From the NCBI GenBank assembly GCA_947497245.1, contig CANMFO010000002.1, forward strand, positions 682,001-746,000: a stretch of 64,000 bases of DNA, read 5' to 3'. The notes under the pieces were generated by a model. The model searched no databases. It had not been told where the DNA came from and worked only from the letters and a program-made list of their open reading frames with translations. The DNA is from an uncultured Flavobacteriaceae bacterium (GTDB lineage Bacteria; Bacteroidota; Bacteroidia; Flavobacteriales; Flavobacteriaceae). Shown one piece after another: positions 10,769 to 41,717 of this stretch (positions are counted from its first letter, which is position 1; each line of letters begins with the position of its first letter). The position numbers and the translations under genes are program-made.

Positions 10769-10775
10769 GTTAAAA

Positions 10776-21733: not shown

Positions 21734-23794
21734 TTAATGTTGATGTAAAATGGCAAAGGGTTCGGTAAACATGAAATCGGATGCCCGGGTACCGAAATAA
21801 CGTCGAGCTTCCCCCATGTGCAGGGCCATGTCATGATATTGGTATCGTTGCTGTGCCAGGACCCGCTTTTTATCGATCACCGTATTGTTTCGCTTCAGTT
21901 CCTCGATATCCAACAGGGGCTTGTTGATCGAATATTTGAGCTCTTTGGAATCCAAGTCGAATATAAGGGTGCAGCCTCCATAAAAAATGAAGTCGTCGTC
22001 GTTGAGCAGGGCTTCAGAGTCCGGGATGAAATGGCTGATATTGCCATTCGGATCCGCCCTACAGCCGCTTTTCTGGATAATGGAAAAGACCACATGGTTC
22101 ACTTTTTGCCCATCGGGCCCCACCCGGGACACTACCCTTAGGTTTTGAATTTGAAAAGAGGGGAAGTTCCTGTCCCCGGCCGTTCGAAATCCCAGATTGG
22201 AATAGGTGGGCATAAAGGCCAGGCCCGTCATTTCGCTGAATACCTGGGAATGCATGAATTTGACCTTAATGCGATGGTGCAGGCCCTTGACAAATCGTTC
22301 CGAATCCCCGTAACTGCCGGCAATATAGTTTTTGGTGATTTCGTAAATTTCCTTTCGATCGGTGATGTATTGGATTTCCTTTGCATAGTCCTGCAAAAAG
22401 TCGATAATGATTTCGATGAGTTGGGTGGAGTTGTCGTCAAATTTGGTCTCGTATTTGCTTTGTACGAACAAGGGCTGCAACTGCTGGCCCGACCTGTCCA
22501 AGGAGAGGTCGACCGCATCGTAGCTCAGTGTTTCGATGCTCAGTGTTTTTATGGTCCTCGGATAAATGCCCCGTTTTCTGAAGGCATCGATAAAGGCGAG
22601 GCGATAATCCCATGCATCCTCTTTCATCAAGTCAATGTCCGCTGTGATGATGGCTCTCAAATAGTCCCCAAAGGTAATATCGACAGGGGGGCAGTAATCC
22701 AGGGCACGTATGCACATGTTCAGCACATGCTTGGCCGATTTGGAGGCTTCGTTGGCCAGACGGTTGGCCAGGTCGGGATGGATCTCACCTTCCTCCAATA
22801 CCCCGGTACCGTTGGTCGCTATACGGAGAAGATCGGCAATACGGCTCTCATAGATGGTCAAAAATGCCTCGAAGATTGCGGCGACCAGGATACTGCCGCG
22901 TTCATGGGGCTGCGTTACATTTTGGTAGTCATCGGAATTCGGCTCCCGGGGTTGCCATTCCCCAGTGGCCTCATTGACTTGGCCAATGGCATCCCGCAGG
23001 CTGCCATAGCCCCCTATGGCCGAGCCCAATTCCTGGGCCAGTTTGCCCAGCAAGTTCTGACTGCCGAGGTTGCCCCGTGTATTGGCGATCTCGTGTCTCA
23101 AAACTTCAGGGTGCGTAAAATGCTGGAACAGGGCCACAATATCCGCAAAGGCCTCATGGAACGCCAACATGTCGGGATTGGTCGGGTTGTTGTATTCCCT
23201 GTGGATACCATCCAAAATGGCATGGGTAACTTCATGGGAAATTACGTCATGGCTCAGGCAGGTGAACACCAGCGAATTGGGCATATGGATCACGTTGTTC
23301 GCAGGAGTGGAATTGAAATAACCGAACAAGAGCGCCTTTCTATAGGGACTGTAAAAGGCATTGGCCTCGCGCAACGCATGGGGATGAATACGTAGTTTGG
23401 GAACGTATTCCTCGTAATTGTCGTCATTGGTAAGCCTGGGCGACCAAATGATCTTTCTGCCCAGGGCACGTTCAAAATTCTGAATGGTCACCATGGCCAC
23501 GGCATATACCATTTGCTGATGGAATTGGGGATTGCTCACGCTGGGCCGAAGTCCGTTATCGGCCAGGATGGGCCGGTCGTTCAGATCCACGGGAGTATAA
23601 AAGCGTCCTATGGTGGGATCATAGTCAATTACCTCTACATACTCGCCGCAAGGACCGGGGTGCAGATCCTCCCAATCGATCATATAGGTGATCCTATTGA
23701 TTTTTGCGGTATCGATCTGTAAGGAAAGGGAAGGGTCGAAGGCGTAGGCTCGCAAATGTCGGAAATCCGGATTTTTTGTTGCTGTTATTTTCAT
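21734..23794 (-). CDS. gluzincin (M4-like) metallopeptidase-fold protein
   Basis: A 686-residue protein. The zinc site is HEVTH (187-191), with the third ligand most likely E214 in AFHEAFADIVALF, the HExxH plus ExxxD spacing of M4-type gluzincins. It lacks a signal peptide and the propeptide of secreted thermolysins, so it appears cytosolic. The C-terminal 300 residues are unassigned, with a helical stretch near 370-470. ATG 23794 (MKITATKNPD) is preferred to an upstream codon at 23842. It is the first gene of a three-gene - strand cluster with the MBL-fold and amidohydrolase genes. Its substrate is unknown. Confidence 0.75.
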   Translation of the reverse strand: MKITATKNPDFRHLRAYAFDPSLSLQIDTAKINRITYMIDWEDLHPGPCGEYVEVIDYDPTIGRFYTPVDLNDRPILADNGLRPSVSNPQFHQQMVYAVAMVTIQNFERALGRKIIWSPRLTNDDNYEEYVPKLRIHPHALREANAFYSPYRKALLFGYFNSTPANNVIHMPNSLVFTCLSHDVISHEVTHAILDGIHREYNNPTNPDMLAFHEAFADIVALFQHFTHPEVLRHEIANTRGNLGSQNLLGKLAQELGSAIGGYGSLRDAIGQVNEATGEWQPREPNSDDYQNVTQPHERGSILVAAIFEAFLTIYESRIADLLRIATNGTGVLEEGEIHPDLANRLANEASKSAKHVLNMCIRALDYCPPVDITFGDYLRAIITADIDLMKEDAWDYRLAFIDAFRKRGIYPRTIKTLSIETLSYDAVDLSLDRSGQQLQPLFVQSKYETKFDDNSTQLIEIIIDFLQDYAKEIQYITDRKEIYEITKNYIAGSYGDSERFVKGLHHRIKVKFMHSQVFSEMTGLAFMPTYSNLGFRTAGDRNFPSFQIQNLRVVSRVGPDGQKVNHVVFSIIQKSGCRADPNGNISHFIPDSEALLNDDDFIFYGGCTLIFDLDSKELKYSINKPLLDIEELKRNNTVIDKKRVLAQQRYQYHDMALHMGEARRYFGTRASDFMFTEPFAILHQH

Positions 23795-24235
23795 GAATGC
23801 TGTTTGATGATACGTCCGCCCCATTTGGTCTCCAGGCCCCATAAGGGTTCCACTAGGTCAACGGCATGGCCCATCGCCTTTTGGCCCGGGCAGGCAACCC
23901 ATTATTGGTTCGAAACCAAAGCTTTGGGCACTGGCAACCTGTAGCAAGAAGTTTTGTTACATAAAATTCAAATACAAGGGGGAATCGAAACGAATAGAAT
24001 CTGTAAGAATGGAGATATTAAATGTAGGAATAATTTTTCAAACTTAAAAATGTTTTATTGGGGCCGGGCTTTACGGTCCACGGGTTCCAGGGACATCTTG
24101 AACCGTATATCCCGGCTCCATCCCATAAACGGGAAGTGAACGTTTTTTTTTGGTTTGGAAGAACCCGAAGGTCCGGTGGCCGGCACTGACATTGGCCCCA
24201 TGGGGCATGTTTTAAAAAATTCCTGTTGGCGTACG
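23795..24235. other. intergenic region upstream of the hydrolase cluster
   Basis: No convincing gene. It must hold the 3' end of the envelope operon and the promoter of the three-hydrolase cluster. TAAGTTTG on the - strand (24039-24046) matches TAnnTTTG but would give a leader of more than 200 bases and has no clear -33 partner. A 12-base perfect palindrome GCCCCATGGGGC is at 24195-24206. Confidence 0.5.
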
Positions 24236-25195
24236 TCAGCCCTCATTGATGACCTTGTCCATTTCGCCCTGGTGCCTTGTTCGCGTAAATTCAGCCTTCG
24301 CAATCGCCCTAATTTTCTTTCTTTTTCTAATTTTTGGGGGCTCCTGGGCCGCTAGGCCCCCGGTCTTTGTACGATCTCTGGATATGGTGCCTTCGGCCTG
24401 CACCCCATTGCTGGTTTTTGTCTGAAGCTGCGCCTTTAGTTTTTGGGCAGGGGAATGGCAATTTGATTCTGCCTCTATGGACCCCAAAATTTCCAGGGCA
24501 CTTTCCTTGTTGTTCTTTGAAATCTCGGCCTTTGCCCGTACGAGGTTTTTTTCACAGGTTTTGTTCAAATACCCCTTATAGGCCTCATCCAATTTATTTT
24601 GGATTTTTTTATAACAATCGCCCCCGACCTCTTTCGGAACGGGATACAAGAGCGCAATGGCCTCATTGTACCTCTTTTGGCGTATCATGGTCGCGGCTTC
24701 GCCATGAATACGATCGCAATTGGTCCGGTAGTGGTCCAGGATTTTGGATTTAGCCTGCTGAAGAAAGTTTTCAACCTTGTCTCCCCTGGTCTTGATCTTG
24801 GAAATGGACTGATCGATCGCTTCCTTTTTGGAATATCCGTCCCCTGTGATTTCCTGTGTATATACGCTGTACACCTTTCTTGTCTTCACTTCTTTCACAA
24901 ACAAATTCACCTCTGCATCGACTACGTGGACATTTCTAAGGCCCTCTACCACTTTATGGTCATATATTTCATACTTTGGATAGAGGATGAACTTGCTGGA
25001 ATAACCCTCCCCGGAAATTCCGTAATTGCTTACCATTCGTTGCAACCTAGATTCTATTTTTGAGATTTGACCGCTCGTCAGGCCCTCCATTTGAGTTGGG
25101 GCCACCACTGAAATGGGGAGATCGTCCTCCTGTGCGGCCAAGAGGAAAAAATTAAGGATCACAAAAAGTTGAATTGCCTTTTTTATTGCTTCCAT
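24236..25195 (-). CDS. exported protein of unknown function, last gene of the envelope operon
   Basis: A 319-residue protein with a signal peptide (MEAIKKAIQLFVILNFFLLAAQ). Residues about 30-140 look like a small alpha/beta domain ending in SVYTQEITGDGYSKKEAIDQ, a pattern seen in proteins that accompany CsgG/LPP20-type lipoproteins. Residues about 155-260 are helical and TPR-like, with two cysteines. The C-terminus is strongly basic. It starts 8 bases after the stop of the preceding gene. No firm family; the context points to an outer-envelope complex. Confidence 0.65.
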   Translation of the reverse strand: MEAIKKAIQLFVILNFFLLAAQEDDLPISVVAPTQMEGLTSGQISKIESRLQRMVSNYGISGEGYSSKFILYPKYEIYDHKVVEGLRNVHVVDAEVNLFVKEVKTRKVYSVYTQEITGDGYSKKEAIDQSISKIKTRGDKVENFLQQAKSKILDHYRTNCDRIHGEAATMIRQKRYNEAIALLYPVPKEVGGDCYKKIQNKLDEAYKGYLNKTCEKNLVRAKAEISKNNKESALEILGSIEAESNCHSPAQKLKAQLQTKTSNGVQAEGTISRDRTKTGGLAAQEPPKIRKRKKIRAIAKAEFTRTRHQGEMDKVINEG

Positions 25196-25203
25196 GATAG
25201 ATT

Positions 25204-26127
25204 TTATTGAATGGTGATGTATAGACTTCCCCTACTGTTGTTGAATTTTACCGGCACTCTTATTTTGCTGAAGAACCGGTCCAATTGACGTTCGATCTTG
25301 CGAGAGGTCATATTGGTGCAGTTTTTAGGGTCCCTGACGGGATACCGGTACTCTTCGACCATCATTTTGGTTTCGGTCACGGAAGTGAGCACATAGTAGT
25401 TATGGAAAGCGTTCCCCTCCAACCAATCCTCGATGACATATTTTAATTTGTCGCCCGCAGATTCAACCTTCTCGTCCATATTGAAACGGGAACCCTCCGA
25501 CAGGCTGAATTCCATTTTGATCGACTTGCCCTGCTCCCTTATCCCGGCCCATTTTTCATTCATCTTTCTTAAAAATTCGTCCAGGTACAGTTCCTTTTGC
25601 TCGTTTTTCTTTTTTAAGGTGGCGCCGATCAACAAAATTTTATCCGGTGTTTTCCAGGCATTGCCAACGATGGGTACACTGGCCATGGAGTTCCCATTGT
25701 CGGTCACATTGGCCTCTAGGACCAGGGTGGCCCTGGTATCCGTGCCCGAGCTACTGAATATGGGATCGATCTCCACGACAATATCCGAAGGGATGTTTCT
25801 GAATATCCGGTTCCTAAACTCGGTCTGCGATTCCTTGGTCACCGCTTCATCGCGCATTCTGGCCCTTAGGGTCGTTTCAAAATCCAAGGTGGTGTACCCC
25901 CTTTCGTCAAAGGCCTGTTTTACTTTTGAAATGGCGACCCGGACTTCCGGTTGCTCGTCCATTATGGTCCGTAGGTCCTCTCCCTCCACCGTTCGTGGCA
26001 AGACCATGATGCTGGGCTGTAGGGTACTGACGTCACAGTCTTCTTGGCCACTTGACTGCCACGCATGGCAAAAAAGAAAGAGTAAAAAGAGCCCGTTGAT
26101 CCCATTGCTGTATCTCCTTGCTTTCAT
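25204..26127 (-). CDS. exported DUF6175-like protein
   Basis: A 307-residue protein with an N-terminal signal (hydrophobic run LFLLFLFCHAW). After PSIMVLPRTVEGEDLRTIMD it contains a repeated alpha/beta arrangement with FDERGYTTLDFETTLR and a central EIDPIFSSSGTDTRATLVLE. I read it as similar to the DUF6175 proteins found beside CsgG-like genes in Bacteroidota; this is from memory of the family and not certain. Its start overlaps the upstream lipoprotein stop as ATGA, so the two are translationally coupled. Confidence 0.6.
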   Translation of the reverse strand: MKARRYSNGINGLFLLFLFCHAWQSSGQEDCDVSTLQPSIMVLPRTVEGEDLRTIMDEQPEVRVAISKVKQAFDERGYTTLDFETTLRARMRDEAVTKESQTEFRNRIFRNIPSDIVVEIDPIFSSSGTDTRATLVLEANVTDNGNSMASVPIVGNAWKTPDKILLIGATLKKKNEQKELYLDEFLRKMNEKWAGIREQGKSIKMEFSLSEGSRFNMDEKVESAGDKLKYVIEDWLEGNAFHNYYVLTSVTETKMMVEEYRYPVRDPKNCTNMTSRKIERQLDRFFSKIRVPVKFNNSRGSLYITIQ

Positions 26128-26582
26128 AAACCGAATTTTTTAATGATTTTTTTGTCTTCCAGGTCTTTTCTCAAGGCCCTTAAATTAATCTTAAGGCTCA
26201 CACTTGCCCGTTTCCGTCCACCCTTTACTTTTTCCAGTCTTTTGCTTGAACCGAGGATGAACGATTCCATGCGATTGGAATAAAAGTCGGTCAAATAGGT
26301 TTTGTGCTTGCTGTGTTCCTCCCGTTCGTCTATTCCTATCAGGGGGTCGTTGAAGGGGGAACCCGAGATTCCGCGAAAAAACAAGTTTTGAAAGGCCAAT
26401 TTCCTCGCATTGAAAACGGCCTGGTTTTCATTGTCCCCATAGTCGATACTAAGTACGCTTACCGTGTTTCGGCCTTCGTTTTCCAAATAATTTACCTGGG
26501 CCGAACTTAAATCGGCCTTGCCACTTGTACTCTTGCATGCCATGAATGCCATAAAAAGAAGTACGCTTAAAATCTTTTTCAT
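26124..26582 (-). CDS. LPP20-like lipoprotein
   Basis: A 152-residue lipoprotein: MKKILSVLLFMAFMAC gives lipobox MAC with C16. The mature part has the LPP20/FlgT-N-like pattern: a strand-helix unit where NQAVFNARKLAFQNLFFRGI is the signature helix, and a basic tail. LPP20-type proteins partner CsgG-like proteins in several outer-membrane systems (family knowledge). It starts 1 base after the CsgG-like gene's stop and overlaps the next gene by 4 bases. Confidence 0.65.
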   Translation of the reverse strand: MKKILSVLLFMAFMACKSTSGKADLSSAQVNYLENEGRNTVSVLSIDYGDNENQAVFNARKLAFQNLFFRGISGSPFNDPLIGIDEREEHSKHKTYLTDFYSNRMESFILGSSKRLEKVKGGRKRASVSLKINLRALRKDLEDKKIIKKFGL

Positions 26583-26583
26583 C

Positions 26584-27450
26584 CTATTTCGATTTGCAGA
26601 TCAGTTTTCCTCCCGATTCAAAGAGCTGTTTTAATGTGTCGCCGCCTTTGTCCACTTTTGCGGTGGAGAGTTTGGTACCTTCCACTGCGGTGATTTTTAG
26701 ATCCGCGATCCACTTTTCCCGCATTACATCCTCCCCGTCGATGTTCAAGGTGGTAATCTCGTACACGCTAAATTTTTTGTTTTTTTTGACGTTGGAATCG
26801 GAACCTACATTGATCAGTACCAGCTTGGCCCTGCCGTCCTCACTTTCTTCTATCGAAATCAGTTTGATGGCACTTCCCCCGGATTTGTCCAAAAACTGCC
26901 CTAGCTTTTTATCGAGTGATTTGGCGTTCAGCGCCGCACGGAAAGCCTCTTCCTTGGTAATGCCCCCGACGTTATCGGAAATTGTACCTATGGAGAATTT
27001 CTGGGAATTTACGGTAGCCCCCGTTTCCGTATCCAAAATGTCCACAGAAAAGCTAAAAATGGCACGTTGGACCCCCTTTTTTTTGGAATCGTTGTCCAGC
27101 ACATCGCTCAGTTTGAACCCGATCTTTTTGTAGGTGACATCAAACAGCTTGCTGGCGATGACGAACGCCGCGCCCTTTACCCTTCCCTGTTCCACAACCT
27201 CGGCATTTATGGAACTTATCTGTTTTTGGATTTCCTGTTCGTTCAAAATGTACCCCAGGGCTTCCCTGTCCAGCACTTCGTAGGAACCCGACCCCAAAAG
27301 GGCCTCTTTGATCTTCTGACTGACTTTCTCGGCTTCTATCGCATCCTGCATGCCCAATGCCTTTGTAGATTGCAGGCCAATCGTGGATTGCTGCCCGTAT
27401 GCCGCAAAAGAGGCAAGTAGGAATATGGAAAAATACGTTTTCATTTTCAT
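26584..27450 (-). CDS. CsgG-like secreted protein
   Basis: A 288-residue protein with signal MKMKTYFSIFLLASFAAYGQ. It follows the CsgG/FlgO layout: a first strand with TIGLQSTKALG, a helix with SQKIKEALLGSGSYEVLDRE, the connector ALGYILNEQEIQKQ, then VKGAAFVIASKLFDV and a strand with IFSFSVDILDTETGATVNSQ. CsgG-like proteins form outer-membrane pores or periplasmic rings that recruit other factors. The mature N-terminus has no lipobox cysteine, unlike curli CsgG, so it may not be lipidated. ATG 27450 is chosen because the longer frame (27513) buries the signal peptide. Confidence 0.7.
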   Translation of the reverse strand: MKMKTYFSIFLLASFAAYGQQSTIGLQSTKALGMQDAIEAEKVSQKIKEALLGSGSYEVLDREALGYILNEQEIQKQISSINAEVVEQGRVKGAAFVIASKLFDVTYKKIGFKLSDVLDNDSKKKGVQRAIFSFSVDILDTETGATVNSQKFSIGTISDNVGGITKEEAFRAALNAKSLDKKLGQFLDKSGGSAIKLISIEESEDGRAKLVLINVGSDSNVKKNKKFSVYEITTLNIDGEDVMREKWIADLKITAVEGTKLSTAKVDKGGDTLKQLFESGGKLICKSK

Positions 27451-27509
27451 GTGTTTGATTTTTAAGATTGTTCTGTTCAGCACCTGTTCGGGTGCATTGA
27501 TTTGGATTT

Positions 27510-28466
27510 TCAATCGATGTCGTAAAAAGCATCGACATAATCGTATTCAAATTGTATGACCACTTCTTCATCCCTATTGATGAAACCCTGTTGTCCGTCG
27601 ATTTTTACCGCCGCCAGACCATTCAGGAAGACAAATGCATCTTCATATTTCGGTGTTATGACCTCTTCCCCTTTTCGGTTGATGTATCCCCATTTGCCAT
27701 CGACCTTTATCGGGGCCAAATTTTCGGAGAACCCCCATGTTTGCTCAAACTTCGGTTCGACAATGGTCCTTCCATTCTTGGCGATAAAACCCCATTTCCC
27801 ATTGTGGTTTACGGCCGCGAGCCCTTCAGAAAATGGAAGCGCATAATGGTAATGGGGGGGTACAACAAGAACACCATCCTTGTTGATGAAGCCTTCCAAA
27901 CCGTTTACGCCCACGGGTGCGAGCGTTTCCGAAAACAGATAGGCACTCGAATATTCAAAGGGAATGGCCACTTCTCCCGAGGTATCTATAAAGCCCCATT
28001 TATGGTTCTTTTGGACCGCTGCCAGTCCTTCTGCGAAGGGTGTCGCCCCTTCATATTCCGTCGCAATCGCAAAGTTGCCGGCATGGTCTATAAAGCCCCA
28101 TTTCCCATCAAGTTTTGCAGCAGCCAGGCTGTCGGAAAACGGTTGTGCGTCTTCAAAGATTATGGGAATCTTTACCGCGTTGTTTTTGTCGATAAAGCCC
28201 CATTTGCCCTTTTTTTTGACCAGGGCCAGACCTTCCGACATTTTCCAGGCCATGTCATAGTGGAAGGGGATGATCCTTTTTCCGTCCCTGTCTATGAACC
28301 CCCATTTTTTCCCTGCCCGGGCAAGGGCGAGGGCTTCCACACTGCTGTTGATGTAAAAATAGAGGTAGCCCCCTGCCAACAGTGCCATGATGGCCGACAA
28401 TATGAGAATGGGCAGCTTACTTTTTTTTCGTCGTTTGCTGTTCGGTTTTGTGTTCTTAGGTCCCAT
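27510..28466 (-). CDS. WG-repeat protein with N-terminal membrane anchor
   Basis: A 318-residue protein. Residues 1-18 are highly basic, followed by a single membrane helix (about 19-38), so it is anchored with the rest outside the cytoplasm. From about 50 to 318 it is built of about six WG units of roughly 43 residues, each with a form of KWGFIDxxG...I.F.Y..A..FSEGLA. WG repeats form a beta structure used in binding. The DNA encoding them is not a nucleotide-perfect repeat. It sits between the LEA2 lipoprotein and CsgG-like genes in the operon, with about 50-base gaps. Confidence 0.85.
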   Translation of the reverse strand: MGPKNTKPNSKRRKKSKLPILILSAIMALLAGGYLYFYINSSVEALALARAGKKWGFIDRDGKRIIPFHYDMAWKMSEGLALVKKKGKWGFIDKNNAVKIPIIFEDAQPFSDSLAAAKLDGKWGFIDHAGNFAIATEYEGATPFAEGLAAVQKNHKWGFIDTSGEVAIPFEYSSAYLFSETLAPVGVNGLEGFINKDGVLVVPPHYHYALPFSEGLAAVNHNGKWGFIAKNGRTIVEPKFEQTWGFSENLAPIKVDGKWGYINRKGEEVITPKYEDAFVFLNGLAAVKIDGQQGFINRDEEVVIQFEYDYVDAFYDID

Positions 28467-28516
28467 ATTGAAACTGGATTATGGATTGGTTTGTTGCTGT
28501 TAAATTGTCAAATACC

Positions 28517-29404
28517 TCAATGGCCCCCTGGCCACTGGAACGGGTTTATCTGAACGTCAAAGTCCTTTTCAATGGGGACCTCGAATTCATAACTTGCTAT
28601 GCCCAGTCGTATGCTTCCCACGCCCGTATATTGCGAGTTACCATTTCCCCAAAAAAAGCTTCCCATGTTCTTCAGTAAACCCACATGGTGCAATTCCGCT
28701 TTCAGGGGCAGTTGGACCTTCTTTAGCCCGGGAAGCTCCATTACGGTATCCAAGGTGGTCGTGGCAAAGGCCCTGGCCGTTCCCTTTGCTTTGAATTCCA
28801 TTCTGAATCGTTTTAGGGTAATGTTGATGGGGTGTTTGTTTTGAAGCCCGATCCGGAACCGATAGTTGGATCTTGCCAGTCCGTAATTCCTGGGGGAAGC
28901 CAAATTTTGGATTTCAATTTCCCGGGAAACAAAATCAGCGCCGAACATGGCGTCAGTGATGAATTTCCTGGCCCCGAAAGGGACCTTGACGGCAAAATCC
29001 TTTCTGATTTTTTTTAAGGGATGTACCGCAAAAGCTTCCCCAACAAACTGAAATTCAACAGTGTCCTTTGATAAGATACGGTCCTGCTTTTCCTGGAGCG
29101 TTTTCAGATCAAAAAAACAGTCAAACGAAAGGACCGTTGTATCCTTGGGAAACAGATCGTGCCCCAAGTTCAATTTGCCCGACCCGAACCGTACCCCGTC
29201 ATACCAGATATCGAATAAAACATCCTTCAATTGATATTTGTACCGGGTGGGGTTGTATACCTGCGAATCCATCGAAAACCGTAGGATCGAACCGCTGAGA
29301 CCCTTAACGCTCAAATTATCGCTGGTAATAAAAACGGGCTCCTGGAAACGGCATGAGCCGCAGGAAAATAGCACTGACAAAAGGACGGTCTGGAATCGAG
29401 TCAT
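28517..29404 (-). CDS. LEA type 2 lipoprotein
   Basis: A 295-residue exported protein, probably lipidated at C15 (lipobox LFSC, second cysteine at 18). The mature part holds two LEA2-like beta-sandwich units: one around FSMDSQVYNPTRYKYQLKDV (about 43-62) and one around YRFRIGLQNKHPINITLKRF (about 182-200). LEA2 domains in bacterial lipoproteins are thought to bind lipids or protein partners. It overlaps the ABC transporter gene by ATGA, which fits a substrate-handling partner of that transporter (inference). Confidence 0.72.
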   Translation of the reverse strand: MTRFQTVLLSVLFSCGSCRFQEPVFITSDNLSVKGLSGSILRFSMDSQVYNPTRYKYQLKDVLFDIWYDGVRFGSGKLNLGHDLFPKDTTVLSFDCFFDLKTLQEKQDRILSKDTVEFQFVGEAFAVHPLKKIRKDFAVKVPFGARKFITDAMFGADFVSREIEIQNLASPRNYGLARSNYRFRIGLQNKHPINITLKRFRMEFKAKGTARAFATTTLDTVMELPGLKKVQLPLKAELHHVGLLKNMGSFFWGNGNSQYTGVGSIRLGIASYEFEVPIEKDFDVQINPFQWPGGH

Positions 29405-31161
29405 ATACTGTCCTTTTTGTGGAGTGAGATAAAAATCAACAGGTACATGATAACACTCAACACCGTTACCGCCAATAGGTTGGCATACAGGCTATTGAAC
29501 ACATCGCCAATGATGATTCCCTCATCGATCAGATCGCCATCGTACAGGCCCAACTGGTCCAAGGAACCGGCGGTTTCACATTTACAATCATTTTTATAAT
29601 AGCCATCAGGATTGAATTCGGGTACGATGACACTTTCCAGGTCCATGGAATTGTCCTGAAAATAGCGGTCCTGTATTCTTGAAAACCCCTCTGTGCCCCA
29701 TCTTCCCAAAGTGAAAAAGCTCAGGATCTCTATCAGGCCCGTATCCAATTTGGTCATGACCCCGGCCAGCATGATCTGTGGCATAAGGGTAATGGGCACT
29801 ACTGTCATTACTTTTTCCGTGTTGCTGAAATAAGAGGATAGAAACAGGCCGATCAGGGTGGCCGAACAGGAAATGAAAAAAAGGAACGCCACGCTTCCCC
29901 AAAAGGGCCTTAAGTAGGTCTCAGGAAACTCTGCGATGGCATTGATCTTGAAATTGTAATGGATGATGAACGTGAAAATGACCACCTGTACGAATGCGAT
30001 CAGGGCTAGCACGATTATTTTTGAGAAGATATAGGTATTGATGTTCAGATTGAACATCCGTTCCCTTTTGTAGATGGGCAGTTCCCCAACGATCTCTTTC
30101 GCCGAGTTGCTGACGCCGAACCAAATGGCCGAAATCGCGGTCAGAAAAATGACCCCTATCCTGAATTCGCTGAACACAAGGCTTACCAACCCGCCGATAA
30201 TGACCGGTTGCAACAGCAACAGCAATAGATTGCCGAAATCGTTCACTTTGATGTTCAAATATCTTTTGGCGAGCCAATACAGTTGTTGAAGACCGGAGTC
30301 CGGTTGGTTTTTGCTTATTTTCGGGTTTAGATCGAAGGAAATGGCATTTTCCGACGGGGCTTGGTACTTTTTTTTCACCTCGTCCAGATCACTCATCTTA
30401 CTGTACACCTCGATAATATTGTCAACGCCAAAATATGAGGTGATGTGATCCGGGTGGCCTTTGTAGACCAAGTGCCCCTTAACGCCCAGAAACACCACTT
30501 CATCGACATAGTTGAGGTCCTCGGGCTTGTGCGTTACCATGATTATGGTGGTGCCCTCTTGGGCCAGATCCCTTAGGCTTTTAAGAAAACTGTCAATAGT
30601 TTCTGGGTCCAGCGGCGAGGTGGGTTCGTCCAGGAACAATATGGTGGGCTCGGTCAAAAGCTCGACGGCAATGGAAATTCTTTTCCGTTGTCCGCCCGAT
30701 AGTTCCCTAACTTTTTTTTGTTTGATATCTTTTTGCGTGGTGTGCCTGCCCTGATCGTGCTGGCCCAGCTTGAGACTTTTTAAAACTTTGTCGATGCGCC
30801 TATCGATCTCTTCGTTTGAAGTGCCATCGGGCAATCGGAGCTTTGCCGCATAAAAAAGGGTGCTGTACACGCTCAATTCCCTGTGGATGATATCGTCCTG
30901 CGGCACGTATCCAATATTTTTCTTGACCAGGTCATAATTTTCTATCAACGGAAGGTCATGGATGTAAACGTCTCCATAGGTTGCTGGATTATCACCGTTC
31001 AAACATTTCAGCAGTGTTGATTTTCCGCATCCCGAGGGACCCATCAGGGCCACAAAACTTTTACTTTTGATGTCCAGGGACATGGGCTGCAGCCCAATTT
31101 TGTTTTTTGGATACCTTTTGGTAATGCCGACTGCTCTGATCGATAAACCTTCCTCTCTCAT
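29401..31161 (-). CDS. ABCG-like half-transporter (ATPase plus permease)
   Basis: A 586-residue fusion of an ATP-binding cassette and an ABC-2-type membrane domain. Walker A GPSGCGKS is at 41-48, the signature LSGGQRKR and the Walker B FLDEPTSPLDPE near 165-205; the D-loop reads SPLD instead of the usual SGLD. About six membrane helices lie after residue 300. This arrangement, as in ABCG and PHA-type exporters, usually moves lipids or hydrophobic molecules. Being a half-transporter it should dimerise. It lies 7 bases after the M48 gene and overlaps the LEA2 gene, making it the core of the operon. Confidence 0.88.
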   Translation of the reverse strand: MREEGLSIRAVGITKRYPKNKIGLQPMSLDIKSKSFVALMGPSGCGKSTLLKCLNGDNPATYGDVYIHDLPLIENYDLVKKNIGYVPQDDIIHRELSVYSTLFYAAKLRLPDGTSNEEIDRRIDKVLKSLKLGQHDQGRHTTQKDIKQKKVRELSGGQRKRISIAVELLTEPTILFLDEPTSPLDPETIDSFLKSLRDLAQEGTTIIMVTHKPEDLNYVDEVVFLGVKGHLVYKGHPDHITSYFGVDNIIEVYSKMSDLDEVKKKYQAPSENAISFDLNPKISKNQPDSGLQQLYWLAKRYLNIKVNDFGNLLLLLLQPVIIGGLVSLVFSEFRIGVIFLTAISAIWFGVSNSAKEIVGELPIYKRERMFNLNINTYIFSKIIVLALIAFVQVVIFTFIIHYNFKINAIAEFPETYLRPFWGSVAFLFFISCSATLIGLFLSSYFSNTEKVMTVVPITLMPQIMLAGVMTKLDTGLIEILSFFTLGRWGTEGFSRIQDRYFQDNSMDLESVIVPEFNPDGYYKNDCKCETAGSLDQLGLYDGDLIDEGIIIGDVFNSLYANLLAVTVLSVIMYLLIFISLHKKDSI

Positions 31162-31168
31162 AATGGTC

Positions 31169-32017
31169 TTAGTTCGAAATGTATTGGTGCAGACAGGCTC
31201 TTCTATCTTTTGAAAAAGGATGGGTGGCGTTGAGCTTACTGAAAATTGAAGTATTCTCGGACTTCTCCAGCCTTATGAAAAAATCTGAAAATTTGTTTTC
31301 GTCATATCCAGCGCTCCGTGCCAGCCCAAAACCGTATTTATCGGATTCATACTCATTTGCCTGGCCAAATGGCGCGGTAAACTTTGAATTGATCTCCAAT
31401 GCCATTTTGGTGAACGCTTCATTTTTGGCAAATCCGGTAAGATTGGATATCAATAGTATTTTTCCAATTTTCCTTTCAAGGTGCCGATGGACCTGGTGCC
31501 CAATTTCGTGGCTTATGATAAATGCGAGCTCATCGTCCGACTGTACAAATTGAAGTAGGCCGGTGGTAATGTAGATCCGGCCACCTATCATGGTAAATGC
31601 GTTTATTTCATCGGATTTAAGCACATAAAGATTTATTGCGGGGCCCTGGGAGGGAGCATGGTCCATTATATTTGAAAAGACCTTTCGGATACTATCGTTT
31701 ACCGATTTGGACGGGACCAGCTTGTATTTTTCCAGGACGTTCCGATGGCTTATTTTTCCTATGGAATCCTGCTGTTTTTCACTGATGGTTACCCAATGGT
31801 CTATGGACCTGTTCTCCATTTGGTTCAAGAAAAAGTTGGGTCCGTCCAGCACATGGCCACACTCGAATTTTTGAAACCGGATTTTTTGAGCATAAAAATC
31901 AACATACTCCACTAGCGCATGGTCTGCTTGGGAGTTGGCACTGCCGGGTGCAAGGAATAGGAAAAACAATAAGAACAGTGATCTGTAAATATTTTCCGTG
32001 GTACGGTACCTTGTCAT
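31169..32017 (-). CDS. secreted M48-family zinc metallopeptidase
   Basis: A 282-residue exported peptidase with signal peptide (hydrophobic run LFLLFFLFLAPGSANSQ). The zinc motif HEIGH is at 170-174, and the third ligand is the glutamate of YESDKYGFGLA, as in M48 enzymes; NAFTMIGGRIYIT preceding it is the family's substrate strand. BepA- and YcaL-like M48 enzymes in the periplasm act in outer-membrane protein and LPS assembly control. It is the first gene of the eight-gene operon. ATG 32017 gives the signal peptide; an upstream ATG at 32056 adds 13 residues. Confidence 0.85.
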   Translation of the reverse strand: MTRYRTTENIYRSLFLLFFLFLAPGSANSQADHALVEYVDFYAQKIRFQKFECGHVLDGPNFFLNQMENRSIDHWVTISEKQQDSIGKISHRNVLEKYKLVPSKSVNDSIRKVFSNIMDHAPSQGPAINLYVLKSDEINAFTMIGGRIYITTGLLQFVQSDDELAFIISHEIGHQVHRHLERKIGKILLISNLTGFAKNEAFTKMALEINSKFTAPFGQANEYESDKYGFGLARSAGYDENKFSDFFIRLEKSENTSIFSKLNATHPFSKDRRACLHQYISN

Positions 32018-32491
32018 TCTCTTGGGTATTTTTTCAAAATGGGTTCTTGTGTCCATGCATTTTGCGGTTATGTAACGATGCGCAATTTGCGGTACAAGTG
32101 TTTGGAATCAAACCTAAATACATTCACGGTCAATTCATTACGGGTTTCCGTAAAAAACAACTTCTTGGCCCAAGATTTTGATGAAAAGCAGGTTATTATC
32201 GAAGAAAGTGAGATTCCCTGTCAGATTAATCCTAATTATTCACGACGCGAAGACGTTAAAACCCGGCGAACGCCTTATACCGGATAACAAAGTATATGGA
32301 AAATTCGGAGGGCCGTTTTATCCGTTACCCGTCAAGGACTTAAGCAGTGGCTATCCGGGTTGATGGAAATAGGGGCTTCCCATTCTTTTAGAATCCGCAA
32401 AACTGTTCTATCTTCAAGGCTAGGGCCATCCCATGCAGGCAACAATAAAAAATAGGATGGCCCAAAAGAAGCACGGTAAAAATAGCACCCC
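32018..32491. other. divergent intergenic region between envelope operon and SnoaL-like gene
   Basis: Holds the promoter of the - strand operon near its left end. No gene is convincing: the frames present are short and lack a recognisable start context. A GGCCATCC/GGATGGCC inverted pair spaced by 23 bases is at about 32425-32463, just upstream of the SnoaL-like gene. Confidence 0.5.
32109..32116 (-). promoter_or_regulatory. -7 promoter element of the envelope operon
   Basis: The - strand reads TAGGTTTG, a perfect TAnnTTTG. A TTG lies 14 bases upstream, closer than the usual 17-19. The transcript would start near 32100 and give a leader of about 85 bases before the M48 ATG. Confidence 0.45.
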
Positions 32492-37300: not shown

Positions 37301-37384
37301 GTGGTCTTATATAGCACCCCGGTGGCATTGTTTTATAGAATAGGGGACCAAAAATGGAAGATGTCGAAAGAATTTGGGGATTGA
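34346..37384 (+). CDS. large exported protein with carboxypeptidase-regulatory-like and pentapeptide-repeat domains
   Basis: A 1012-residue exported protein with signal MTKVKLFTLFCLFTVLGFAQ. Residues about 25-110 are a carboxypeptidase-regulatory-like fold (LVGHVNDAVSKKGIEGVRVQ). Residues about 230-390 form a pentapeptide-repeat helix, with many A(D/N)FSGANLEGA-type units. The following 620 residues have a Cys-x-x-Cys (GNCKICD, about 452-458) and no recognised fold; two related C-terminal segments, around HQFYVRYQFLDTQGQYAINV and around ILIVGTINNVMLIYPKHKRV, suggest a duplicated domain. Function unknown; its partner is the small membrane protein 3 bases upstream. Confidence 0.7.
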   Translation: MTKVKLFTLFCLFTVLGFAQTVKQELVGHVNDAVSKKGIEGVRVQLVSQPDIVHTDSEGKYRFKRAGGYTVGRGYSVLLYKEGYINTMSTDNLILNANGMLNNLFMKSEFEKFLWITVKDGLTNELLSEVKIEIQGQMVVTNELGRAKFDFSRFGNGKAKAVLKRNCYQDETVRVDLKGEEEIKLIPICRTVERKSSGLDPLRAAQLLDRALESRNGSKQGQVEAIEYLRGNGYDFNSVDFSGVNLSDLQLPDTKLASANFDFADLTSANLSKGTLSKNRFYLARADNADFSRADLSLSRAAFMPARKANFQGADLTHVYFIGCDFSDADFSGANLEGAIFALCNLSGATFDNARIINAGLSGNVLDNASFEGAEIRNTEIAGSVVSGRKFEFSEEQRSGLCKYLDGYRRIYMGSTKFEFKFELIKERNSTYRKYDEVVREYAFFDNFGGGNCKICDAEKWKSGKWRDYYSFFTLIKTGAFLGKNDRVNYTQDLVKKHLGFLQEKLILANTYRVESDFKKWDAEIKSYFKSKRVGAKPDMDIDLLTVQMRRYKIMPPDKIPWKLLAYRHLTDRLGQELDKKTTTDARGFGILPNLESLPPAYTVPTFPLDWVDGYRSWINKSSGSDHRSFRIPLNVSRLYVKQGRATFEILKGSYRLSGEGYPKEYAELMLKNGIDPDRLLDARVPNSNYYSGNDHQFYVRYQFLDTQGQYAINVPEGTDKKDLNIRIEVKLDKMRLLGNGKNSYLICDVVPVVIEYRINGSENWERGHAFDNAKKHGFDRDKYKSLKNRALLNKDVVLAAMLKEGLLTTDDFRLSSLASKHVEGARNFIHGGTLFPYQFIFPKHVKRGIKPFNYVEKYAQWLSKNAKIGVETFSIELKYFGEGHAQAGKTKKVAVPIWDNSPYHTRSVIHDYLMENQIEKQQVREYPRSKILIVGTINNVMLIYPKHKRVAHFEIDQAFKKEDVELRLELKLDKIDYVQGVNKKVVLYSTPVALFYRIGDQKWKMSKEFGD

Positions 37385-37452: not shown

Positions 37453-38223
37453 CTACACCAGATCATCCAAAACATCGTCCAGATCAAGCCCCTCGTAATG
37501 GTCCATAAAATCTTCCAATACCTGGCCCAGGGTAGCTTCGTTGTAGTCTATGGGTACCAGAAATAGGCCCAGGGAACCAAAAAACCTGTAAATAAGGGAG
37601 GCATGTTTTCGTTTTGATTGGATTTGTGCAATTTCCGACCTTAAGTGCGCTATGATGGAATTTTGCAATTGTATATCATCGTTCACCCTGGCCTGAAATT
37701 CCTCAAAACGCTTTTTTGTCTCTTCAAGCTCCTCTTTTATCCCATCCAACTTACGCTCCGTTATACGGATGACCAAATCCTCCAGATCGTCCTTTTTCTT
37801 GTCCAGAAAATCCAGTTTTTCCGGTCGCTTTTCAAAAATCAGCGCTATGATTTCGTCCGAAGGACGATTGTTCTTGTAATGTTCCTCAATGTCCTTGCGG
37901 TATTCCTTCTCCAGAATCTTAAATCGGGTTGGACTTTTCTTTTCGTAATGGAAGTAGGTCAGGGTATTGAGGGTCTTTATTTCGGGCAGGTTGTAATCTT
38001 GGGTCACGATTTTGCCCGCGCTCAAGTTTTTCCGCAGATTAAAAGCCCTTCGAACCGTTCGGTGCACTATCGTACCGTCATTTGAACCTGGACCGTAGGA
38101 GGCGATGATCTTGAAAATATTGCCGGTCTCTGCCCGCTCGCTATTAAAATCATACTCAATAATCTGGTCGGTCAGGAAAATAAATGCGGGCAAATGCTCT
38201 TGGGTCAGTCTGGAAATTGCCAT
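37453..38223 (-). CDS. coiled-coil protein of unknown function
   Basis: A 256-residue soluble protein. Residues about 1-120 form a mixed alpha/beta domain with FIFLTDQIIEYDFNSERAET near the start. Residues about 135-200 are a charged coiled coil (repeated E/K/L heptads, LEDLVIRITERKLDGIKEEL). A hydrophobic stretch, YRFFGSLGLFLVPIDYNEAT, follows, then a very acidic tail LDLDDVLDDLV. No family recognised. It is monocistronic on the - strand and its start is preceded by a near-perfect inverted repeat. It could be a sensor or a DNA/phage-related factor; nothing decides. Confidence 0.6.
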   Translation of the reverse strand: MAISRLTQEHLPAFIFLTDQIIEYDFNSERAETGNIFKIIASYGPGSNDGTIVHRTVRRAFNLRKNLSAGKIVTQDYNLPEIKTLNTLTYFHYEKKSPTRFKILEKEYRKDIEEHYKNNRPSDEIIALIFEKRPEKLDFLDKKKDDLEDLVIRITERKLDGIKEELEETKKRFEEFQARVNDDIQLQNSIIAHLRSEIAQIQSKRKHASLIYRFFGSLGLFLVPIDYNEATLGQVLEDFMDHYEGLDLDDVLDDLV

Positions 38224-38230
38224 GATCTAA

Positions 38231-38565: not shown

Positions 38566-38596
38566 AAGGCCGCCTAACTTTGTTGGGTGGTCTTTT
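38566..38596 (+). terminator. Rho-independent terminator after the small lipoprotein gene
   Basis: AAGGCCGCC (38566-38574) pairs with GGTGGTCTT (38586-38594) over nine positions, two of them G-U, around an 11-base loop, followed by a short T-run to 38596. It lies 24 bases after the lipoprotein stop. The loop also contains TAACTTTG, which matches the -7 consensus and could serve the kinase gene. Confidence 0.6.
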
Positions 38597-38664
38597 GGTA
38601 TAGCATAGGCCGTGTCCGCATTTTCGTTTTCCTTGGACCGTTCTCGCTCAGTATTATGTTCTCC

Positions 38665-40581
38665 ATGAAATTCCTTTTGTTCGTTTGTTGTTTTTTCGCA
38701 GTGGTAGGTTGTGAGCGTTCCCGTGTCCCATCACCCAAAAAATGGGGAAATGACCGGGCGCAAGTGCTCCTTGACAAAAGCAAGGATAAGACCATAAGTA
38801 CCGAGAAAAGGTTGGAATACCTTAATGAAGCGCTCACCGAAATCGGGGAAGACGCGTACGACTCCCTTGCCTTGGCCATTCTTCATAACAAAAGCTACTG
38901 CCACTACGCACTTGATCAAATGGACAGTTCCCATTATTACGATAGGCGGATATTGCAGAAAGCGTTGAAGATCGGCAACGATTATTATTCGGCCCGGGCC
39001 TCCAAGGATTTGGGGATCTACTATGACAACAGACAGGTTTATGATAGTTCCTACTACTACCACAACCTTTCCAAAAACTATTTCCAAAAAAACCTGGACA
39101 GTAGTCAAATAGGGCGTCGATTGCTCAGAATGGGCATCATCCAACAAAGTCAAAATGATCATTTCGGAGCGAAGGAAACCTTGACCGAAGCACTGCAGTA
39201 TCTAAAGACCACGAAGGACGAAAACTATATTGCATCGGTCTACAACGGCCTGGGGACCAATAACAGTAAATTGTTGAACCACCCGGATGCCATAGCCTAC
39301 TACCAAAAGGCGATTGCGAAGACAAATTCAAAACAGGACGTAATCTCCTATAAGAACAACTTGGCCATGGCATTTGCCAAAAAGGGAGATTATGAAGGGG
39401 CAATTGCCATACTGGGCGCTTTACTGGAGGATTCCGTATTGGATGTAAGCTCAACTACCTATGCCAGGGTCTTGCACAACCATAGCTATGCAAAATGGCG
39501 CAAAGGCATCGGGAGGCAGGACAGCCCCTTTTTTGAGGCTTTAGGGATACGAAAAGCGAAGAACGATAAAAGGGGGCAGATTTCGAGCTATACCGATTTA
39601 GGGGAATATTTCTCTAAAACCGACCCAGAGCGGGCGGAAAAGTATTTGGATACGGTCATTGGACTATCGCGGGAACTGAAGATCCCGAAGGCGGAAACCG
39701 ATGCTTTGCAATTATTGATGGGACTGGAACCCAAAAACACAGCCATCAAAGACCGTTATATTGTTCTTAAGGATAGCCTGTACCAACAGGAACTGTTGGT
39801 AAAAACCCAATTCGCCAAATTAAAATACGATGATGAAAGGGAAAAGGAGCGGATTTTGACCTTGGAGACCGAAACGGCCATCAAAAATGCGGAACTGATC
39901 GAGCAGCGTGCAGAGAAGGTGGTATACCTGTCCTTGAGCACGCTCCTTTTGCTCGGGGGAACCTTCCTTTACTTTTTTATGCGCCAAAAAAGCAAAAAGG
40001 AAAAATTGGAGGCCGTTTACACTACGGAGAAAAAAATTTCACAGCGTTTGCACGACGAAATTTCCAACGACCTCTATGGCGTGATGGTAGAGGTACAGCA
40101 ACAGTCCGAGCCCCGTTCGCTCATGGTGCTCGATCATTTGGAACATATCTATCAACGCACCCGGAGTATCTCCCATGATACCCGGGCAATCCGCACCGGG
40201 GCTCAATTTAAAGACGAACTGAAGGAGCTTTTCTCCGCTTTCAACAGCGATGAAACGGGCCTATTGGTGCGGGGCCTCAAGGATGTGGACTGGCAAGCCC
40301 TGGGCAAACATAAATGCATTGCGGTGTACAGGGTAATGAAGGAAATTCTGATCAATGTGAAGAAGCATAGTCATGCTCAGAATGTGGTACTACAGTTCGA
40401 AAAGCAAAAAAAACTGCTCAAGATCAGCTGTAGCGACAACGGCGTCGGCTGTGGTCCCAAGCAAAAATTTGGAGTGGGGCTCCAAAATACGGAAAACCGT
40501 ATTCATAGTATTGGCGGTACTTTTATATTTACCGGAAGTAAGGGAAAGGGTACACGCGTTTTGATCACCATCCCTTGTTAA
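38665..40581 (+). CDS. TPR-containing sensor histidine kinase
   Basis: A 638-residue kinase. The N-terminus MKFLLFVCCFFAVVGC looks like a lipoprotein signal (C16), and residues about 40-370 are tetratricopeptide-like repeats that would face the periplasm. One membrane helix follows (about 418-438). The cytosolic part has a HisKA_3-like box RLHDEISNDLYGVM with the phospho-acceptor histidine, and an ATPase domain with EILINVKKHS (N box), DNGVGC and FGVGLQNTENRIHSIGG. Related TPR kinases in Bacteroidota pair with LuxR-type regulators, as here: the regulator starts 14 bases after this stop. Start ATG 38665 is preferred to the longer frame from 38587. Confidence 0.82.
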   Translation: MKFLLFVCCFFAVVGCERSRVPSPKKWGNDRAQVLLDKSKDKTISTEKRLEYLNEALTEIGEDAYDSLALAILHNKSYCHYALDQMDSSHYYDRRILQKALKIGNDYYSARASKDLGIYYDNRQVYDSSYYYHNLSKNYFQKNLDSSQIGRRLLRMGIIQQSQNDHFGAKETLTEALQYLKTTKDENYIASVYNGLGTNNSKLLNHPDAIAYYQKAIAKTNSKQDVISYKNNLAMAFAKKGDYEGAIAILGALLEDSVLDVSSTTYARVLHNHSYAKWRKGIGRQDSPFFEALGIRKAKNDKRGQISSYTDLGEYFSKTDPERAEKYLDTVIGLSRELKIPKAETDALQLLMGLEPKNTAIKDRYIVLKDSLYQQELLVKTQFAKLKYDDEREKERILTLETETAIKNAELIEQRAEKVVYLSLSTLLLLGGTFLYFFMRQKSKKEKLEAVYTTEKKISQRLHDEISNDLYGVMVEVQQQSEPRSLMVLDHLEHIYQRTRSISHDTRAIRTGAQFKDELKELFSAFNSDETGLLVRGLKDVDWQALGKHKCIAVYRVMKEILINVKKHSHAQNVVLQFEKQKKLLKISCSDNGVGCGPKQKFGVGLQNTENRIHSIGGTFIFTGSKGKGTRVLITIPC

Positions 40582-40595
40582 TTCCGGGGAGCAGC

Positions 40596-41264
40596 ATGTT
40601 TAAAAAAATATTAGTAGTAGAAGATCTCGATAGTATTGGCCTGGGCCTGGCCATAATGCTGGAACGGGAATTCGGTACGGAAGAGGTCGTCATGAGCCAA
40701 TATTGCAACGATGCCTACCGAAAGTATCTAAAGGCCCTGAACGAAGGGGATCCCTTCGACCTCTTGATTACCGATCTGTCCTTTACGGAGGACTATAGGG
40801 AGAGCAGCTTGAAGAACGGTGCCCAACTTATTGAAAAAATCAGGAAGGAGGACCAAAAAATCCCAATAATCGTTTATTCTGTGGAAGAACGTCCGCTTTT
40901 GGTCAAAAGACTTTTGGAAAAATTCATGGTATCCGCTTACGTGCTCAAAGGTAGAAATGGACTGAAATACATGGCGGAAGCTACACGTGCGGTGCTTGCC
41001 GGAAGGACGTATTTGTCCACCGATATGGAATTTACCCTAAAGCGCAAGACGGTTTTCGAAATGGAAGACTACGATCTGAGCCTACTGTCCCATCTGTCGA
41101 ACGGACTTACCCAAGATGAGATATCGCAATACTTCAGCAAAAAGGGAATTACCCCCTGTAGCCTCAGTTCGATTGAAAAACGCCTGAACCGCTTGAAAGA
41201 GGAATTGCAGGCAAAGAACACCATTCAACTCATTTCCAATGCCAAGGATCTGGGACTCATTTAG
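40596..41264 (+). CDS. response regulator with LuxR-like output domain
   Basis: A 222-residue response regulator. The receiver domain has ED at 9-10, phospho-acceptor D60 in LLITDLSF, and the lysine of VLKGR near residue 114. The C-terminal third holds a helix-turn-helix, LSHLSNGLTQDEISQYFSKK followed by the recognition helix SLSSIEKRLNRLKEEL, similar to but not a textbook LuxR/GerE domain. It forms a two-component system with the kinase upstream. ATG 40596 is chosen over an in-frame codon at 40575 inside the kinase gene. Confidence 0.83.
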   Translation: MFKKILVVEDLDSIGLGLAIMLEREFGTEEVVMSQYCNDAYRKYLKALNEGDPFDLLITDLSFTEDYRESSLKNGAQLIEKIRKEDQKIPIIVYSVEERPLLVKRLLEKFMVSAYVLKGRNGLKYMAEATRAVLAGRTYLSTDMEFTLKRKTVFEMEDYDLSLLSHLSNGLTQDEISQYFSKKGITPCSLSSIEKRLNRLKEELQAKNTIQLISNAKDLGLI

Positions 41265-41392
41265 CATTTCGGGCTCCCACATACCACAATTTTGGGCCAC
41301 AGTTTACCTGACTTAAAATGCCTTTCATCTAATTTTCCGCAATAAATGGAACGGATTACGGGATGCCGTAAGGATTGTAGCTTGCCAGCTTT

Positions 41393-41400
41393 TAGGTTTG
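41393..41400 (+). promoter_or_regulatory. -7 promoter element of the small exported protein gene at 41460
   Basis: TAGGTTTG is a perfect TAnnTTTG. A TTG lies 15 bases upstream (within GATTGTAGC). The leader to the ATG at 41460 would be about 55 bases. Confidence 0.45.
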
Positions 41401-41459: not shown

Positions 41460-41717
41460 ATGAAAAGAACTTCAATTACCATTGCCCTGTTATTCTTGTT
41501 AAGCCTGACCCAATGCTCCCGAGCAGAGGACACATTGGATACCCTGAACAGTCTGGACTGTCTGGAAAAGGCGATTGACCTGAACAACCGATCGGATGAT
41601 ATGTCCTGCGATGAGCTCCGGACGGAATTGACCAAGTTGGAAAACTCCTGCCGGGAAATCCTCGATGAGGACACCAAGGCCAATATTGCGCTGCTCAAGG
41701 CATTGTGCGAAGATTAG
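41460..41717 (+). CDS. small exported protein, probably a lipoprotein
   Basis: An 85-residue protein with signal MKRTSITIALLFLLSLTQC; C19 may be a lipobox cysteine (LTQC is not canonical). The mature 66 residues are acidic and helical, with four cysteines, consistent with two disulfides. No family recognised. A hairpin with T-run 110 bases downstream may end the transcript. Confidence 0.55.
   Translation: MKRTSITIALLFLLSLTQCSRAEDTLDTLNSLDCLEKAIDLNNRSDDMSCDELRTELTKLENSCREILDEDTKANIALLKALCED

Follow-up and report, generated by a model that had tools for sequence, protein, structure and literature searches.

Among the described systems closest to the locus considered here is that of Mycobacterium tuberculosis, in which the ABC exporter Rv1747 carries FHA domains and is encoded near the Ser/Thr kinase PknF (PMC5549992); transport of a glycolipid (PIM) has been suggested for it (PMC5549992; PMC3908365). 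The locus is a run of eight minus-strand genes in 64,000 nucleotides of DNA from an uncultured Flavobacteriaceae bacterium (contig CANMFO010000002.1, positions 682,001 to 746,000), the whole of which is here called the window and numbered from its first letter. Its likeness to Rv1747 is one of domain layout in the exporter family. The window exporter differs in having no FHA domain and no adjacent kinase or PP2C phosphatase, and in being accompanied by an M48 peptidase, a LEA2 lipoprotein, a WG-repeat protein and a FlgT-like protein. Bacteroidota loci with FHA-bearing ABC exporters (within L013-L052, and L055, in our numbering of loci) have M48, ABC and LEA2 proteins of the same families as the window, but keep FHA and mostly the kinase and phosphatase, and, except for L019, they have no CsgG-like/DUF6175 unit in the stretches examined. 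A second described assembly is the Vibrio flagellar H-ring, which the excerpts consulted give as FlgT with the lipoproteins FlgO and FlgP (PMC7990780). It resembles a protein of the window that is predicted from its model to be periplasmic, two-domain and FlgT-like, and that is encoded beside a small lipoprotein; no match to FlgO or FlgP came up, though no search aimed at flagellar genes was made.

It is likely, with a probability of about 0.7, that the eight genes derive from an FHA-ABC export system and have become free of its kinase, being now most likely under two-component transcriptional control. No Bacteroidota system is described in the titles and abstract openings of the Rv1747, FHA and ABC transporter literature listed, and no account of such a system was found in the literature on FHA, ABC, PP2C and M48 in Bacteroidota. 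No literature naming DUF6175 was found in a search that left subscription journals mostly outside. The gene set is thus without description in the literature searched, as the original prediction had supposed, and what is new in it is an FHA-ABC-derived exporter that has lost its phospho-switch.

The eight-gene set and its two units

The genes run from 32017 to 24236, and all eight open reading frames are present:

31169..32017, minus strand: M48 metallopeptidase with signal peptide (Pfam PF01435, E 1.3e-25; reading frame extendable to 32056)
29401..31161, minus strand: ABCG-type half-transporter, nucleotide-binding domain then transmembrane domain, without FHA (Pfam PF00005, PF01061)
28517..29404, minus strand: LEA2 lipoprotein, modelled with two LEA2-type beta-sandwich domains in tandem (Pfam LEA_2 and predicted structure)
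27510..28466, minus strand: membrane-anchored WG protein, probably periplasmic (PF14903, E 9e-93, eight stretches; one transmembrane segment)
26584..27450, minus strand: predicted periplasmic CsgG/LpoB-fold protein, two-domain and FlgT-like (start taken at 27450; frame opens at 27513)
26124..26582, minus strand: small lipoprotein of a conserved family with an FMAC lipobox (by reading), resembling LPP20 in a motif only
25204..26127, minus strand: DUF6175 protein, signal peptide by reading (PF19672, E 8.6e-44)
24236..25195, minus strand: secreted protein with a weak TPR-like C-terminal region, the final gene (conserved family; weak Pfam TPR signal)

Successive gaps are 7, -4, 50, 59, 1, -4 and 8 bases if the ATG at 27450 is taken as the start of the CsgG-like gene; if the longer frame from the TTG at 27513 is used instead, the gap between it and the WG gene becomes -4. 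The co-directional layout, with gaps of -4 to 59, is as originally predicted. That reading had also placed seven products in the envelope or outside it; the location stands, but the count rises, since the N-termini (by reading) and a hydropathy scan suggest export, lipidation or membrane anchoring for all eight. Its M48, ABC exporter, LEA2 and WG labels agree with Pfam (M48, ABC_tran with ABC2_membrane, LEA_2 and the eight WG stretches), and the LEA2 lipoprotein does lie next to the exporter. In the ABC protein the ATPase domain precedes the ABC2 membrane domain, and its ATPase residues are invariant in the family alignment; the same is true of H170, E171, H174, E222 and H266 of the M48 peptidase in ten aligned sequences, including that of the window. 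The ABC protein is the single full-length copy in its genome, the next best among 40 matches being 24-47% identical and mostly limited to the ATPase part.

The complete set recurs in identical order in five other loci, namely L009 (Allomuricauda), L010 (Poritiphilus flavus), L011 (a Bacteroidia metagenome-assembled genome), L012 (Flagellimonas hadalis) and L153 (genome G642, of the same family). The linkage, on whose conservation the original prediction depended, is therefore maintained, and the set is genuine, being shared by a small number of Bacteroidota. The system is accessory and patchy in distribution: the ABC protein was matched at E 1e-100 in 8 of 397 genomes of the family, while at E <=1e-60 two of 99 near relatives (the genome of origin included) have a match, namely the genome itself and one from another family of the order, and none of nine same-genus genomes carries one.

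The set is a merger of two separate modules, rather than the single ancestral trans-envelope machine that had been envisaged. Unit A consists of the M48 peptidase, the ABCG exporter and the tandem-LEA2 lipoprotein; unit B consists of the CsgG-like, LPP20-like, DUF6175 and TPR-like proteins, and is also found without an exporter. By its DUF6175 gene, unit B occurs in 30 of the 397 family genomes; the TPR-like gene adjoins DUF6175 in 46 loci and is absent in L144. In a quick tree (duplicates L151, L154 and L155 dropped) the exporter-linked copies of unit B, that of L019 included, form one clade. The unit of LPP20-like, DUF6175 and TPR-like genes is itself uncharacterised, and homology among its products and the CsgG-like protein is weak (probability 4-21 in four pairs compared).

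It might be held that two unrelated units are merely adjacent and that their closeness has no functional meaning. The stretches around 43 of 49 ABC genes, some of them short, hold no unit B gene, and most DUF6175 loci have no exporter beside unit B. This explanation is improbable, however, given that DUF6175 is present in all four of the four family genomes with an FHA-less exporter, as compared with 30 of 397 overall, that gene order and near-zero gaps are kept in six loci, that L019 joins both units in a different order, and that a single promoter was found before the eight genes. In L009 (17034-19118) and L012 (17078-17902) a second CsgG-like gene follows the set, with a VWA_4-domain gene next to it in L009.

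Loss of FHA domains, and the WG protein as a possible kinase ectodomain

Relatives of the ABC protein were collected by six peptide patterns taken from the window protein, and a scan of named genomes yielded 51 loci with such a protein, of which 48 were counted as family and three, matching in the ATPase part only, were set aside. Dropped before counting were the general ABC ATPases L057-L059 together with L001/L060, which were duplicate or short, leaving 49 rows. Outside the clade of the window, all 44 relatives have two or three FHA domains ahead of the ATPase; inside it, none of the five proteins has any, and the exporter of a sixth clade member, L153, is also without FHA. A Ser/Thr kinase and a PP2C phosphatase are found in 33 of the 44 FHA-ABC stretches. 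When only loci of at least 18 kb are considered (n = 33), both genes occur in 26 of 28 FHA-bearing loci and either gene in none of five FHA-less ones, and neither was found in the stretches read around the exporters of the window clade. In a tree rooted with Acidobacteria FHA-ABCs, from which L052 had been removed for its very long branch, the six FHA-less members form a clade with support 100/100 inside a 21-row group at 100/99. Because this clade nests among FHA-bearing transporters, the absence of FHA is a loss; that FHA was instead gained by the other relatives is ruled out by the rooted tree.

Some observations count against this account. L025 and L054, two of the 28 long FHA-bearing loci, have neither kinase nor PP2C; a long-branch warning applies to the deep part of the ABC tree; and relatives found by patterns derived from the window protein are not an unbiased sample. 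Additionally, at E 0.001 the window genome contains one kinase and two FHA domains, all in another locus on contig C1:

L064:7982-12871 (contig C1, around 611-616 kb): genes for an FHA protein, an FHA-RDD protein, a Ser/Thr kinase and PP2C, with the only kinase and FHA matches of the genome

This separate locus could act in trans, and no genome-wide search for PP2C was made. At other exporter loci (L032, L034, L037, L039-L042, L045-L050) FHA domains are fused to M48 peptidases, and in some of them, for example L034 and L049, as many as seven Ser/Thr kinases surround a single FHA-ABC exporter. Two different copies of the FHA-ABC locus are present in Muricauda okinawensis and likewise in M. yonaguniensis (L015/L022 and L016/L023).

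The kinase may not have disappeared entirely. In Flavivirga amylovorans (L019) the gene order is kinase-TM-WG (TM, transmembrane segment), PP2C, CsgG-like, small lipoprotein (LPP), DUF6175, TPR-like, M48, FHA-ABC and LEA2, and the exporter carries two FHA domains. Residues 3-318 of the window WG protein align without a gap to residues 316-631 of the L019 kinase (149 of 316 identical), and the alignment reaches the last residue of both proteins. The kinase of L157, whose kinase-WG gene adjoins unit B, aligns over its residues 337-649 with two gaps (113 of 310 identical). The WG protein thus looks like the outer half of the kinase, kept without the kinase domain, which would have been lost rather than gained.

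The other possibilities are that the WG protein was acquired independently and is no kinase remnant, or, in reverse, that kinases captured a WG protein. WG repeats all resemble one another, and the match to the kinase is partly due to these shared repeats; there are also stand-alone WG proteins, adjoining unit A in three loci (L022, L023 and L149) and unit B in L095. The juxtamembrane and transmembrane stretch taken alone is indecisive, since the first 44 residues score 49 with L019, 34 with L157, and 20-41 with non-kinase WG proteins. When the first 62 residues are taken, however, so as to include the start of the first repeat, the score with L019 is 88, as compared with a mean of 23 and a maximum of 51 in 1000 shuffles. 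The whole protein scores 803 with the L019 kinase and 500 with that of L157, and at most 471 with non-kinase WG proteins outside the clade; the ungapped, full-length match holds in one register (757, next best 501). The WG gene also sits before the CsgG-like gene, the same place as the kinase-WG gene in L019 and L157. Independent origin or capture is accordingly judged unlikely, and descent from the kinase ectodomain is preferred. In L157 a papain-like cysteine peptidase (10127-11323) adjoins the kinase-WG gene and unit B, where the window system has M48.

Promoter, operator and two-component pair

The single promoter-like site of the original prediction fared unevenly. Sigma-70 matches in the window are at chance level (14 found, 14.8 expected), but a palindrome with a -7 box upstream of the M48 gene is a likely promoter. 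A scan for terminators showed no excess over chance (8 found, 16.4 expected), and Rfam and tRNA scans of the window gave no matches. TAnnTTTG is the -7 box of Bacteroidota. The coordinates first proposed for the system also left out a linked histidine kinase and response regulator (38587-41264). The elements concerned are:

32109..32153, minus strand: predicted promoter of the eight-gene set, TTACGG-N4-CCGTAA, 21 bases, -7 box TAGGTTTG
41356..41400, plus strand: second predicted promoter, likewise made up of operator, N21 and TAGGTTTG
41460..41717, plus strand: small lipoprotein gene, 85 amino acids, behind the second promoter (open reading frame; lipobox by reading)
38587..40581, plus strand: histidine kinase with TPR region, transmembrane segment (by reading) and HATPase_c (Pfam)
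40575..41264, plus strand: response regulator, receiver domain (PF00072, E 2.5e-6, below the Pfam cut-off) and NarL/LuxR-like C-terminus by reading
37453..38223, minus strand: C17 gene, divergent from the histidine kinase

DNA alignment showed that TTACGG-N4-CCGTAA, a spacer of exactly 21 bases and TAGGTTTG are kept before the M48 gene in all six loci. The window has two copies of the composite promoter, at 32153-32109 and at 41356-41400, whereas 100 shuffles gave none; of the palindrome alone the whole 5.25 Mb genome has three copies, and two lie in the window, while its control, the pattern read backwards, has one. In L011 and L012, too, small lipoprotein genes (by reading) follow the additional sites. 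No description of this operator was found among the literature matches listed. The kinase-regulator pair with a palindromic operator near a promoter presumably resembles two-component systems of the NarL/LuxR type, the window operator being distinguished by its place 21 bases from a Bacteroidota -7 box.

In L009-L012 the histidine kinase and response regulator genes lie directly before M48 on the same strand, divergent from C17, and in L153 they lie upstream of the set on the same strand with three open reading frames between. C17 is next to the histidine kinase in these five loci and in L168, L228 and L232, and beside a weakly matching one in L171. In the window, C17 and the pair (37453-41264) are found beyond a 5 kb stretch of unrelated genes. 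On this comparison the pair (38587-41264) most likely belongs to the exporter unit, and the predicted operator is most likely theirs. One of the intervening genes (34346-37384, plus strand) encodes a protein of 1012 amino acids, in which pentapeptide repeats occur together with a carboxypeptidase-regulatory-like region.

The composite pattern (N20-22) was matched in 79 of the 397 family genomes, and its control gave zero among the matches listed. The response regulator family (above 150 bits) was found in 25 of 40 operator-bearing regions, in 20 of these within 1 kb of the site. It is present in 17 of a first 20 regions, chosen mostly for TAGG/TAAG -7 boxes, and in 8 of a second 20, taken from the other listed matches and several of them sharing a genome. 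Where the box is TAGGTTTG or TAAGTTTG, the family is present in 20 of 23 regions, as compared with 5 of the 17 others. Comparison loci of at least 9 kb, partly from other families than the operator-bearing regions, comprised 38 of the 44 loci L013-L056 and 39 of 42 others (L101 among the 39 being an exporter rather than a unit B locus); the family was present in 0 of 38 and 2 of 39, that is, in 2 of 77. Since the regulator is frequent at operator regions and rare in comparison loci, operator and regulator family go together.

Several results speak against assigning the operator to this pair. The window pair is 6.5 kb from the set and on the opposite strand, with unrelated genes between; 15 of the 40 operator-bearing regions are without the regulator family, and three of these have a TAGG/TAAG -7 box (L223, L226, L233). 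The palindrome of L157 has no matching -7 box, and those of L168 all have one mismatch. The operator might then belong to some other family-wide regulator, the neighbourhood of the pair being incidental, and the sharing of genomes by some operator regions and the wider taxa of the comparison loci would also be in keeping with this. With the regulator present in 20 of 23 regions having the two boxes named, and in so few comparison loci, such a coincidence is quite improbable, and control by the linked pair remains the favoured interpretation. Activation rather than repression would be expected, because the operator sits at the -33 region. An earlier idea, that the pair had entered to replace the kinase inside unit A, was changed when the same pair was found to accompany unit B in L157 and L168.

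At L153:13823-13838 and L157:12612-12627 the palindrome is again exact but has no complete -7 box, and the L157 copy lies between the unit B cluster and the histidine kinase. In family genomes (L223-L262) a cassette of histidine kinase, response regulator and TTACGG-N4-CCGTAA-N21-TAnnTTTG stands near varied accessory genes, with TerB, VWA and HNH genes among its neighbours. In several cassettes a TerB-like gene is followed by a gene for about 420-450 amino acids and then one for about 300, both without family assignment. These findings point to a family-wide regulator-operator cassette in Flavobacteriaceae, and for the window the model implies a regulon with two promoters, the site of each being given exactly.

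Predicted folds and a possible export mechanism

The lipoprotein at 28517..29404 has the LEA2-type beta-sandwich by Pfam and by predicted structure. Foldseek gave transglutaminases as its best matches, which are taken as a general similarity between tandem beta-sandwiches. In VIA-align comparisons of the model, LEA14 and TMEM106B rank below the archaeal structure 3but and are mixed with beta-galactosidase domains. The CsgG-like protein has the CsgG fold, with weak Pfam matches to CsgG (E 8e-6) and LpoB (2e-4), and its first domain shares that fold with the N-terminal domains of CsgG, PelC, LpoB and TolB. Its predicted structure, however, is matched better by FlgT over both domains and by PelC over the first than by CsgG, and the two domains appear to be arranged as the middle and C-terminal domains of FlgT. 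Its signal peptide lacks the lipobox cysteine in the window, L009-L012 and L019 (by reading), and, as regards the transmembrane hairpins of a CsgG-type beta-barrel, the model shows a low-confidence loop at residues 112-123. The original prediction of a CsgG-like protein is thus upheld as to the weak family match, and a CsgG-type ring or pore finds no support, there being no lipobox and a fold nearer FlgT and PelC. Both fold assignments come from AlphaFold models built on 10-11 sequences (pLDDT 76 for the LEA2 and 69 for the FlgT-like protein), a point to be set against them.

The LPP20 label of the small lipoprotein, which comes from a motif, was not confirmed: no Pfam match was found up to E 0.1, the LPP20 model found nothing in the window genome, and the profile-profile match to LPP20 (PF02169) covers just 22 columns, with a probability of 39. 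When 16 LPP20-domain sequences were used in the test, one protein of the small lipoprotein's family gave a match, at E 0.0066. A PDB profile search gave no match for this protein, and for the TPR-like protein one match at E 0.91, which was disregarded.

Together with the losses described above, these predictions allow a mechanism to be proposed. The ancestral form, still present in Flavivirga L019, would have combined three parts: a Ser/Thr kinase in the membrane, bearing a WG ectodomain; PP2C; and an ABCG protein with two FHA domains that read phosphorylation by the kinase. In the clade of the window the kinase domain, phosphatase and FHA would be gone, and the WG ectodomain would stay as a membrane-anchored protein. 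The TPR histidine kinase may now phosphorylate the response regulator, which would bind TTACGG-N4-CCGTAA in the place of the -33 element and switch on the set and the small lipoprotein gene. An ABCG homodimer could then take a lipid-like substrate out of the inner membrane and pass it to the tandem-LEA2 lipoprotein en route to the outer membrane. There the FlgT-like protein, small lipoprotein, DUF6175 and TPR-like proteins might form a periplasmic platform, linked to the inner membrane by the WG protein, with the M48 peptidase serving in quality control. Transport of a lipid, polymer or protein, as originally suggested, is the presumed function. In its most specific form, this proposal describes a trans-envelope lipid exporter in which a dedicated two-component transcription switch took the place of post-translational Ser/Thr phospho-control, whose kinase, phosphatase and phospho-readers all went together, the orphaned kinase ectodomain being reused as a structural link between the exporter and a flagellar-H-ring-like platform at the outer membrane with a non-flagellar role; so detailed a version is put forward tentatively and is doubtful as a whole.

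The platform could alternatively be an envelope-stress or conflict device, whose ABC protein does not export a structural lipid. The patchy spread (8 of 397 family genomes, none of nine same-genus genomes), the TerB and VWA genes near the regulator-operator cassette elsewhere, and the M48 peptidase in the set would suit such a role. The ABC2 membrane domain of the ABC protein speaks for an exporter, however, and PADLOC gave general ATPase-type matches to the ABC protein only (best, mad3 at 2e-31) and none for the other nine proteins scanned, so that no match specific to a known anti-phage defence system appeared. A stress or conflict role is unlikely, and export by a derivative of the FHA-ABC system is preferred to it. 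The locus then offers a natural experiment, a phospho-controlled exporter after its control is stripped away: the retained parts (M48, ABC, LEA2, WG ectodomain and platform) should be the working machine, and the lost ones (FHA, kinase and PP2C) the switch.

Downstream of the set, a 702-amino-acid protein (21734-23842, minus strand), with no Pfam or NCBIfam match and no counterpart in L009-L012 by phmmer, has an HEVTH motif by reading.

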